Shown here piece by piece: positions 52,454-55,238 of a stretch of DNA of 64,000 nt (position 1 is the stretch's first letter; each line of letters begins with the position of its first letter). The notes under the pieces are model-generated. The model searched no databases. It had not been told where the DNA came from and worked only from the letters and a program-made list of their open reading frames with translations. Source of the DNA: Cryomorphaceae bacterium (GTDB taxonomy: Bacteria > Bacteroidota > Bacteroidia > Flavobacteriales > ECT2AJA-044); assembly GCA_017798125.1 (NCBI GenBank), contig CP059070.1:1550001-1614000 (forward strand), given 5' to 3'. The position numbers were made by a program, and so were the translations under genes.

Positions 52454-52771
52454 ATGGCTGATCAGAATCAAGACCAAGGCAATCAAATCAACATTGAATT
52501 GCCCGAAGAAATCGCGGAAGGGACGTATAGTAACTTGGCGATCATCAATCACAGTCCGGCGGAGTTTGTCGTCGACTTTGTGAAGATGATGCCCGGTGTG
52601 CCCAAAGCGAAAGTTAAGTCTCGAATTGTTTTGACGCCCCAGCACGCCAAGCGTTTGATGCGTGCTTTGGCCGATAACGTACAAAAGTACGAGCAGCAAT
52701 TCGGTGAGATTCAAGAAGACAACCGAGGCAACATTCCGCTGAATTTCGGCGGACCGACTGCCCAAGCTTAA
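52454..52771 (+). CDS. DUF3467 family protein
   Basis: A 105-residue soluble protein starting one base after the rpoC stop. The pattern INIELPEEIAEGTYSNLAII, EFVVDFVKMMPG, KVKSRIVLTPQHAKRLMRAL and DNVQKYEQQFG is that of DUF3467, a small protein often found after rpoC in Bacteroidota. The function is unknown; its position suggests co-expression with RNA polymerase. A terminator follows. Confidence 0.85.
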   Translation: MADQNQDQGNQINIELPEEIAEGTYSNLAIINHSPAEFVVDFVKMMPGVPKAKVKSRIVLTPQHAKRLMRALADNVQKYEQQFGEIQEDNRGNIPLNFGGPTAQA

Positions 52772-52788
52772 GCTCTAGAAATAGTAAG

Positions 52789-52819
52789 AAGCCGCTTCGG
52801 AAACGAGGCGGCTTTTTTT
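52789..52819 (+). terminator. Terminator of the rpoC operon
   Basis: AAGCCGC / GCGGCTT stem (extended by TTCG/CGAG) with a GAAA loop, then seven T. Confidence 0.85.
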
Positions 52820-52936
52820 GTCCCTTTAAATTGCTCGCGTAGTTTCGACGGGGCTCTATAGGACACCTTCAATAGTCACGAAATATTGCGCGCCTTTTTT
52901 GCCCATTTTGCTGGCCTTCAGGGCCAAATGTAAGCA

Positions 52937-52957
52937 CCGTGACATTTTCGTGATACT
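52937..52957 (+). promoter_or_regulatory. Tandem CGTGA operator upstream of the response-regulator gene
   Basis: CCGTGACATTTTCGTGATACT contains CGTGA at 52938 and again at 52949, an 11-bp period as used by OmpR/PhoB-type regulators. The same 21-nt element, two differences, precedes the lipoprotein gene at 55177. A reverse half-site TCACG lies at 52876. Confidence 0.7.
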
Positions 52958-52964
52958 TAGCTTC

Positions 52965-52972
52965 TAGCTTTG
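52965..52972 (+). promoter_or_regulatory. -7 promoter box of the two-component operon
   Basis: TAGCTTTG starts 8 nt after the CGTGA tandem, so a bound regulator would occupy the -33 position. Confidence 0.65.
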
Positions 52973-52990
52973 TAAGTCAAACGCTGACTT

Positions 52991-53689
52991 ATGAAGAAGG
53001 TACTCGTTGTAGAAGACGATCAAGATATCCGAGACTTGATTACGCTTCATTTGGAAGATATGGACTGCACACCCACAGGCGTGGGGGATGGGAACCGTGG
53101 ACTTCAAGAGGCATTGACTGGAAACTACGATCTAGTTCTTTTGGACCTCATGCTCCCCGGAACGGACGGCATTTCGATTTGCCAAAAGATGAGAGCGCTT
53201 GAAGTTTTCACCCCTGTTATGATGCTTACGGCTCGAAGCGAAGAATTCGATAAGGTACTCGGCTTAGAAAGTGGAGCTGATGACTACCTGACCAAGCCTT
53301 TTGGCATTCGTGAAATGAAGGCAAGAGTCAAGGCCTTGTTGAGAAGAGAAGAGCGTTTGAAAAGCAACTCTGGTTCAGAACGCCAGCGCATTGAGCGAGG
53401 AGGATTGCTCATAGACTTGGAGCAACGAAAGGTGGAAATTGATGGTGAGCGAATTGAGCTTACTCCAAAGGAGTATGAATTGTTGGTGTTGCTCGCAGAT
53501 TCACCAGGCCAGAGTTTCAGCAGAGAGCAACTGCTTCTTCATATATGGGGCTACGAATTCAAAGGCTATGAGCATACGGTAAATTCACACATAAACCGGT
53601 TGCGGACCAAAATCGATAAGGACAAAGCTGACGCTCCTTTTATTCTAACGACTTGGGGCGTGGGTTACCGCTTCAACGATCAACTTTAA
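52991..53689 (+). CDS. OmpR/PhoB-family response regulator
   Basis: A 232-residue DNA-binding response regulator. The receiver domain has the acidic pair in LVVEDDQD, phospho-acceptor D52 (LVLLDLMLPG), Thr in MLTARS and K102 (DDYLTKPF). The C-terminal winged helix has ELTPKEYELLVLLADSPG, SREQLLLHIWGYE and the recognition-helix region TVNSHINRLRTKI, ending with WGVGYRF. It is followed by its histidine kinase after 4 nt. The CGTGA tandem in its own promoter suggests autoregulation. Confidence 0.94.
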   Translation: MKKVLVVEDDQDIRDLITLHLEDMDCTPTGVGDGNRGLQEALTGNYDLVLLDLMLPGTDGISICQKMRALEVFTPVMMLTARSEEFDKVLGLESGADDYLTKPFGIREMKARVKALLRREERLKSNSGSERQRIERGGLLIDLEQRKVEIDGERIELTPKEYELLVLLADSPGQSFSREQLLLHIWGYEFKGYEHTVNSHINRLRTKIDKDKADAPFILTTWGVGYRFNDQL

Positions 53690-53693
53690 TCTC

Positions 53694-55151
53694 ATGGGCC
53701 AAAGTTTTAAAAATAGCCTTGTCTGGCGACTGAGCTTGGTATTGTTCCTTCTCTTTGTCGTTATCGGAATCTCCTACGTGTTTTTCACGGCGAACACCAT
53801 GCGAGAGTACCATCAAAAGACCACACAGCAGCTCCATGCACACGTAGCTGAACATATGCTGCTAGAGGTGCAGCCCTTTGTAGATGGGGAAGTCAATGAA
53901 GCGGCATTGGGTCAAATCATGCACTCCATGATGGCGGTCAACCCTAATCTGGAGGTATACCTCGTGGATCCCTCTGGCGAAATTCTCTCCTATGTGGTTT
54001 TGGACAAAGAGGTTCGCCTGAACAGCATAGAATTAGAACCCGTACAAAAGTTCCTCTCCAGCTCGGGATGCGCCTATGTTTTGGGCGACGACCCTCGGAT
54101 TCCCGGCAGAAAGACCATTTTTTCGGCTACAGAAGTATTGGAAGCTGGCCAGCTACTCGGCTATGTTTACATGGTCCTGGCCAGCGACCAGTACGAAACG
54201 GTCTCCGCCTCCCTGTATTCCGACTATTTCATGCAGCTTGGTACTCGATCTTTCGTGATCACTCTGATTTCGGCGCTTCTTATCAGCGTTGCTTTGATTT
54301 TCTTGCTCACGCGTAACCTCCGTCAGATTATTAAGACGGTGCAGCAATACGAGAACGGAGATCTTACGGCCCGGGTACCCATTACCTCCGATAACGAATT
54401 GGCCGCCGTAGGGCGCACCTTCAATCAGATGGCGGATACCCTCAGCGCTAATATCGAAGAGCTCAAAAAAGTCGATCGCCTACGGCGCGATTTAATTGCC
54501 AACGTCTCCCACGATCTTCGCAGTCCAATGGCAGTGATCCAAGGGTACATTGAAACCCTTGCCCTCAAGAACGATTCCCTCACAGCGGAACAACGGGCCG
54601 AATACTTTGAGCGCGTGCTGCGCAGCAGCGACAAATTAGAGCGACTTGTGGCCAGCCTCTTCGAGCTATCCAAATTGGAAAGTGATCAAATGGAGCTTCA
54701 CCTAGAAACGACAACACCCGAAGAATTGGTTCGTCATTCTGCAGAAGACTTTTCCCTCTTGGCGTCTGAGAAGGGATTGGAGTTCGACCTCGAAGTTCAA
54801 CCAGACCTGCCGGAGGTACAAGTGGATCCTGCGCTATTCCAACGCGTTTTGCAGAACTTACTCGACAACGCCATCAAGTATACCCCCGAAGCCGGATTCG
54901 TGGCCCTAAGGGTCAAAAAAGAGGAGGAGGAGATTAGGTTTGAAATCGAGAATTCTGGCCCGGGAATTCCAAGTGAAGACGTCCCGCATCTTTTTGATCG
55001 TTATTACCGCGCTCAGGCCAAGGACAACAAAGGGACGGGACTCGGTTTGGCTATCGTTAAACGGATTTTGGATCTGCATCAATCCGTGATCGCAGTGGTC
55101 AGCAAGGCCAATCAGAGCACCACTTTTGCCTTCTCCTTACCCTCGGCGTGA
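53694..55151 (+). CDS. Sensor histidine kinase
   Basis: A 485-residue membrane kinase for the adjacent response regulator. Transmembrane helix 1 (about 11-33), a periplasmic sensor region of about 150 residues with no recognised ligand motif, helix 2 (about 185-207, SFVITLISALLISVALIFLL), HAMP, the phospho-acceptor H273 in IANVSHDLRSPMAVIQGYIE, then the ATPase with NLLDNAIKYTPEAG (N box), ENSGPGIPSEDVPHLFDRYY (G1/F) and KGTGLGLAIVKRI (G2). An imperfect dispersed repeat lies over the DRLRRDL codons. The signal sensed is unknown. Confidence 0.93.
   Translation: MGQSFKNSLVWRLSLVLFLLFVVIGISYVFFTANTMREYHQKTTQQLHAHVAEHMLLEVQPFVDGEVNEAALGQIMHSMMAVNPNLEVYLVDPSGEILSYVVLDKEVRLNSIELEPVQKFLSSSGCAYVLGDDPRIPGRKTIFSATEVLEAGQLLGYVYMVLASDQYETVSASLYSDYFMQLGTRSFVITLISALLISVALIFLLTRNLRQIIKTVQQYENGDLTARVPITSDNELAAVGRTFNQMADTLSANIEELKKVDRLRRDLIANVSHDLRSPMAVIQGYIETLALKNDSLTAEQRAEYFERVLRSSDKLERLVASLFELSKLESDQMELHLETTTPEELVRHSAEDFSLLASEKGLEFDLEVQPDLPEVQVDPALFQRVLQNLLDNAIKYTPEAGFVALRVKKEEEEIRFEIENSGPGIPSEDVPHLFDRYYRAQAKDNKGTGLGLAIVKRILDLHQSVIAVVSKANQSTTFAFSLPSA
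54476..54491 (+). repeat. Possible degenerate hairpin repeat, copy 11 (inside histidine kinase)
   Basis: TCGCC-TAC-GGCGC-GAT has the loop and GAT tail but only four stem pairs. It encodes RLRRD, common in kinases, so it may be coincidence. Confidence 0.35.
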
Positions 55152-55176
55152 GGAAGGTCACGAAAAAGTGAAGAGC

Positions 55177-55197
55177 CCGTGATTTTTTCGTGATACT
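55177..55197 (+). promoter_or_regulatory. Tandem CGTGA operator upstream of the lipoprotein gene
   Basis: CCGTGATTTTTTCGTGATACT repeats the element found before the response-regulator gene, with CGTGA at 55178 and 55189. A reverse half-site TCACG lies at 55158. Confidence 0.7.
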
Positions 55198-55204
55198 CTC
55201 GGAG

Positions 55205-55212
55205 GATCTTTG
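55205..55212 (+). promoter_or_regulatory. -7 promoter box of the lipoprotein gene
   Basis: GATCTTTG, one base off TAnnTTTG, again exactly 8 nt after the CGTGA tandem. The weak first base fits a promoter that depends on an activator. Confidence 0.6.
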
Positions 55213-55238
55213 ACTCAGAAATCATAAAAAAAGAAATT

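Follow-up and report, generated by a model that had tools for sequence, protein, structure and literature searches.

How is a two-component system connected to the lipoprotein gene that stands beside it? In the window (the whole stretch of 64,000 nucleotides that we analysed), the genes for a response regulator (RR), a sensor histidine kinase (HK) and, 87 bp beyond the end of HK, a lipoprotein (LP) all lie on the forward strand. The same short tandem repeat precedes RR and LP (Table 1). A sequence-only reading had proposed that RR autoregulates its operon and activates LP. Are both repeats operators of RR, and does RR have further targets? Judged by comparison across genomes, both sites are very probably operators of the RR encoded at 52991, which would control its own operon and LP, and these are its only two clear targets in this genome. 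We put the probability of this reading at about 0.88.

Table 1. Positions (within the window) of the genes, operators and promoter elements of the RR-HK-LP locus.
Feature	Position	Strand	Description
Response regulator (RR), OmpR/PhoB-type, 232 aa	52991..53689	+	Response_reg and Trans_reg_C (Pfam)
Sensor histidine kinase (HK), 485 aa	53694..55151	+	N-terminal extracytoplasmic part, HAMP, HisKA, HATPase_c
Lipoprotein (LP), 292 aa	55239..56117	+	Cys19 of lipoprotein-type signal, RskA_C-like, repeated YEGW motif
Operator of RR-HK operon (predicted)	52938..52957	+	CGTGA 52938-52942 and 52949-52953, then TACT; held-out profile E 1.9e-4
Operator of LP gene (predicted)	55178..55197	+	CGTGA 55178-55182 and 55189-55193, then TACT; held-out profile E 4.5e-4
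-7 box of RR promoter, TAGCTTTG	52965..52972	+	Positions 27-34 in gapless 30-promoter alignment; putative +1 near 52977
-7 box of LP promoter, GATCTTTG	55205..55212	+	Fixed position in 10 LP promoters, TTTG 10/10; putative +1 near 55217
Third, weaker direct box AGTGA	55167..55171	+	11 bp 5' of main LP pair, same 11-bp register
Inverted half-site (TCACG on + strand)	55158..55162	-	20 bp 5' of main LP pair; TATCAC conserved there in LP promoters

RR has the features of an OmpR/PhoB-type regulator. It joins a receiver to a winged-helix Trans_reg_C domain (PF00072, E 4e-26; PF00486, E 1e-26), the gene of a membrane HK adjoins its own, a pairing kept at orthologous loci, and the core promoter carries direct half-sites in tandem, spaced by about one helical turn. 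A fold search with HK returned mainly kinase-core matches. The C-terminal helix GYEHTVNSHINRLR of RR is probably the recognition helix; it is nearly invariant over the whole ortholog set, as would be expected of a helix with a conserved target. MtrA is the nearest PDB sequence to RR and gives its best NCBIfam score. RR scores below the curated cut-offs for the MtrA equivalog (225.8 bits, cut-off 300), the PhoB equivalog (197.7 bits, cut-off 296.2) and Bacteroidetes PhoB (181.2 bits, cut-off 270). Hence we class RR as neither MtrA nor PhoB; it would work like them.

LP matches the C-terminal RskA domain (RskA_C, PF10099) with 56.1 bits (cut-off 29.4), and this is its only Pfam match. Neither a sigma-binding cytoplasmic domain nor a membrane-spanning topology was found in LP, and its score of 42.4 bits against the NCBIfam anti-sigma family is below the cut-off of 100. 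Because LP carries a lipoprotein signal and, of RskA, the C-terminal domain only, we do not class it as an RskA anti-sigma factor. The predicted structure is beta-rich (pLDDT 86.5), and no solved relative of LP emerged from the fold search (best E 0.011, TM ~0.2) or the sequence search (best E 0.17).

Just 5' of the RR promoter, at 52454-52830, a DUF3467 protein is encoded (E 3e-36), directly after rpoC, and a hairpin with a run of T, resembling a terminator, is found near 52790-52820. In the only other genome of the genus that was searched (G001) both an RR ortholog and LP are absent, and thus the module is accessory within the genus.

The two operators have exactly the sequence that had been described, CCGTGA-N2-TTTTCGTGATACT with CGTGA twice at an 11-bp period; positions 52937-52957 read CCGTGACATTTTCGTGATACT and positions 55177-55197 read CCGTGATTTTTTCGTGATACT. 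Their flanks differ in sequence. Each operator had been said to end 8 nt before its -7 box. The distance is indeed equal at both promoters, and 8 is the difference in coordinates, so that 7 bases intervene. The sigma-A -7 consensus is TAnnTTTG at -12 to -5, according to the start-site map of Flavobacterium psychrophilum (PMC9723704). The -7 box of the LP promoter is imperfect, with GA instead of TA. When the -7 boxes are placed at -12 to -5, the first CGTGA box spans about -39 to -35 and the second about -28 to -24. A TTG-like -33 element is not visible inside either operator. Hence an RR dimer would stand where sigma otherwise touches -33, and the promoters look activator-dependent. This placement fits the proposal that RR replaces the -33 contact.

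We propose the following mechanism. HK would phosphorylate RR, and two RR molecules would then bind head to tail to the pair of YGTGA boxes, which are spaced by 11 bp and lie on the same face of the helix. Bound at about -39 to -24, RR would stand in for the absent -33 element and assist RNA polymerase at the -7 box. The predicted outcome is positive feedback on the RR-HK operon and switched expression of the adjoining LP. The LP promoter may be more elaborate. Its third direct box and its inverted TCACG are also present in other LP promoters of the alignment, which suggests further cooperative binding there.

The same protein on the same sites could also repress. Autorepression is common among regulators, and the boxes sit within the core promoter, so RR bound over -39 to -24 could block RNA polymerase until a change in phosphorylation lifts the block. 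We regard this as unlikely. With no TTG-like -33 element visible, both promoters look dependent on an activator, and PhoB-type activators stand over the -35/-33 region in the same geometry. So does MtrA at its own promoter, at -34 (PMC13189361).

The locus resembles several known systems. Like PhoB at the pho box, RR combines a receiver with Trans_reg_C, its tandem direct half-sites have an 11-bp period and overlap -35/-33, and autoregulation is expected. Unlike PhoB, whose half-site is TGTCA, RR would recognise YGTGAT(A), it would act at a Bacteroidota -7 promoter, and in this genome its clear targets number two, against a large regulon for PhoB. MtrA of Actinomycetota is reported to bind direct repeats and the promoter of its own operon, and mtrAB shares an operon with a lipoprotein gene (MtrA-MtrB-LpqB); mycobacterial MtrA sites are direct repeats of GTCACAgcg (PMC13189361). 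The complement of that site contains TGTGAC, which resembles the half-site here. The likeness has limits, since MtrA has many targets, and LP matches only RskA_C and has its own promoter. That LP may act on HK, after the example of LpqB, is a lead only. In Bacteroides, the regulons of hybrid two-component systems and SusR also have direct-repeat operators at genes beside the regulator (PMC3878776). Their DNA binding is AraC-type or SusR-type, unlike here, and their spacing is far greater, about 21 bp or 67-77 bp.

Can the operator be found elsewhere in the genome? For target finding, CGTGA-N6-CGTGA had been suggested as a scan pattern, and it turned out to be too short and weak. The exact pattern matches 7 times in 2,844,510 bases, against 2 matches of the reversed control; with two mismatches, it matches 68 times in the window, against a shuffle mean of 55.8. 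We therefore rejected the bare pattern as a regulon probe. The 20-mer CGTGANNTTTTCGTGATACT, with up to three mismatches, matches in the genome only at the two operators, and its reversed control pattern gives 4 matches.

Because the bare pattern is near chance and says little alone, we collected RR orthologs from 396 genomes of the order. Twenty-four genomes, including this one, have an ortholog at E < 1e-65; the next relatives follow at 1e-47. From 27 sites in other genomes we built a sequence profile of 41 columns and left out both sites of the window's genome. On the 2.84-Mb genome, the profile finds exactly two matches at E < 1. These are the two operators, at genome coordinates 1602936 (23.2 bits, E 1.9e-4) and 1605177 (22.0 bits, E 4.5e-4). 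The next match has 11 bits and E 1.6. The circuit thus looks local, with two promoters as the only clear targets in this genome, and the wider regulon that had been anticipated is not borne out.

The third profile match lies at C1:2304958 (L194), with GATCTTGA at the -7 position, 5' of a TonB-dependent-receptor-like gene. At E 1.6 we do not claim it as a further target. In G115, a receptor gene that is distantly similar to that of L194 (28% over 314 aa) is divergent from RR.

Across the order, the operator is a regular feature of the RR promoter. YGTGA-N6-YGTGA is exact in 18 of 23 readable RR promoters, about 40-83 nt 5' of the start codon, and present with one mismatch in two more; the second box is mostly YGTGATA. 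Between the first box and the -7 box, twenty RR promoters and ten LP promoters align gapless, with the -7 box always at the same distance from box 2. In G118, the site stands ahead of a row of lipoprotein, outer-membrane-protein, RR and HK genes. For two more distant RR orthologs (46-47% identical), the tandem in the intergenic region lies on the other strand. In each of the other 23 genomes of the order that have RR, the profile detects the site at the RR locus, a result that is not independent because most of these genomes contributed to the profile. In 23 genomes without an RR ortholog, it gives a single match better than E 0.001 (G038, isolated, E 5e-4).

Independent evidence comes from 80 LP relatives in named genomes, which include Owenweeksia, Phaeocystidibacter, Saprospiraceae, Bacteroidales, Marinifilum, Reichenbachiella, Lutibacter and Melioribacteraceae MAGs, among others. 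An RR ortholog lies within 5 kb of LP in 31 cases, 28 of them with a complete RR promoter, and all 28 promoters match the profile at E < 0.01. Five match training genomes. Hence 23 of 23 new RR promoters carry the site, and they span Bacteroidales, Saprospiraceae and Cytophagales, among others.

The LP promoters follow the presence of RR. Within the order, the tandem is found in all eight LP promoters of the gene order RR-HK-LP and in none of 15 LP orthologs from genomes without RR (best 6-8 of 10 positions). In the named set, the LP promoter carries the site, by profile or as an exact tandem, in 16 of 16 loci with the order RR-HK-LP. Where the genes are arranged divergently, the LP sites are weaker: the profile finds 5 of 15, and 9 of 15 have an exact tandem within 300 bp.

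The association also holds when RR is encoded elsewhere. Among named LPs that have the tandem and no adjoining RR, the genome contains an RR ortholog in 9 of 11 cases, against 1 of 18 for LPs without the tandem (Fisher p 5e-5, relatedness ignored). Seven of ten such distant RR loci match the profile, five within about 150 bp 5' of RR and two further upstream. There are exceptions. The RR loci L307 and L308 are without the site, L246 and L270 have the tandem and no RR was found in their genomes, and the genome of L268 has RR while its LP promoter is without the tandem.

Could a different protein bind the boxes, for example a CRP/FNR-type regulator or a paralogous RR? TGTGA is also the CRP half-site, and some LP genes in other genomes adjoin a CRP/FNR-type gene. 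Nevertheless, this explanation is very improbable. The boxes are direct and not inverted, and the site tracks the presence of RR both in cis and in trans. At LP genes that adjoin a CRP/FNR-type or AraC-type gene, the profile finds the site in 0 of 17 cases and the exact tandem occurs in 2 of 17 (L246, L254). Paralogous RRs fare no better, with the site at 0 of 28 of their loci and one match at E < 1 (11.3 bits, opposite strand). Chance likeness, or a short stretch copied recently from one promoter to the other, would agree with the near-chance frequency of bare CGTGA-N6-CGTGA in the genome, but it is practically negligible: dozens of genomes have the site independently, with constant spacing in the promoter, and the flanks of the two sites differ.

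The same site thus recurs across dozens of distant bacteria and is missing from LP where RR is absent. We therefore conclude that RR very probably controls both itself and LP. Conservation, spacing and co-occurrence in cis and in trans support this part of the sequence-only reading, and activation is what we infer from the promoter geometry. The locus is real and well conserved, and it belongs to a known kind: a two-component system of OmpR/PhoB type that would regulate itself and an adjoining LP target by predicted binding and activation. No description of this RR-HK-LP system was found in the literature searched.

Do relatives have additional targets? In eight RR-bearing genomes (G390, G372, G132, G285, G108, G381, G200, G270), an ECF sigma-factor gene has the complete or nearly complete site on its 5' side. 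In ten genomes without RR, the orthologous gene has no such site (Fisher p 0.006, relatedness ignored), and neither has the more divergent sigma-factor gene of other RR-bearing genomes. In five of the eight genomes, the start of a divergent rhodanese coding sequence runs into the site, and hence part of its conservation may be coding; in G381 no rhodanese gene was seen at the site. A cascade from the two-component system to a sigma factor is possible in these relatives. At the ECF loci (L184-L187, L189, L190, L275-L282, L284), the gene after the sigma-factor gene encodes a small protein of 75 aa that contains cysteine and has no Pfam match.

In other genomes, the gene that faces or precedes RR encodes another secreted or surface protein, such as a 580-aa lipoprotein (G200), a beta-propeller-like lipoprotein together with LP (G004) or a DM13 lipoprotein (G118). 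A broader picture, which we offer tentatively and would not bet on at even odds, is that LP is a conserved surface module that lineages have put under unrelated local regulators (an OmpR-type pair, CRP/FNR-type or AraC-type), each of which would use an operator of its own. Where the OmpR-type pair is present, LP may act back on HK by analogy with LpqB and MtrB, and some Flavobacteriales RRs would have gained the ECF target.

For an RR family that occurs across Bacteroidota, these results supply the operator, the geometry of its promoters and a list of targets. A small, deeply conserved circuit whose operator is specific genome-wide is a good model for the evolution of DNA specificity and of targets. 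Since LP stands beside three unrelated types of regulator across lineages, regulatory rewiring becomes directly testable.

Other LP promoters share sequences of their own. One group has a common stretch near GGAAAAATTGACAA (L104-L107, L108, L111, L241); no AraC-type gene was seen beside L108 and L111, and one adjoins in L104-L107 and L241. In genomes without RR, LP genes just 3' of a CRP/FNR-type gene have another operator in common, which is palindromic, close to TGTTAGCTAGCTAACATTT and upstream of LP (L113-L115, L117, L118, L121, L122; L226, L230, L263, L267). It lies 70-73 nt 5' of the LP start codon in four named genomes. G353 (L123) has the motif too, downstream of a stress-protein-like gene.
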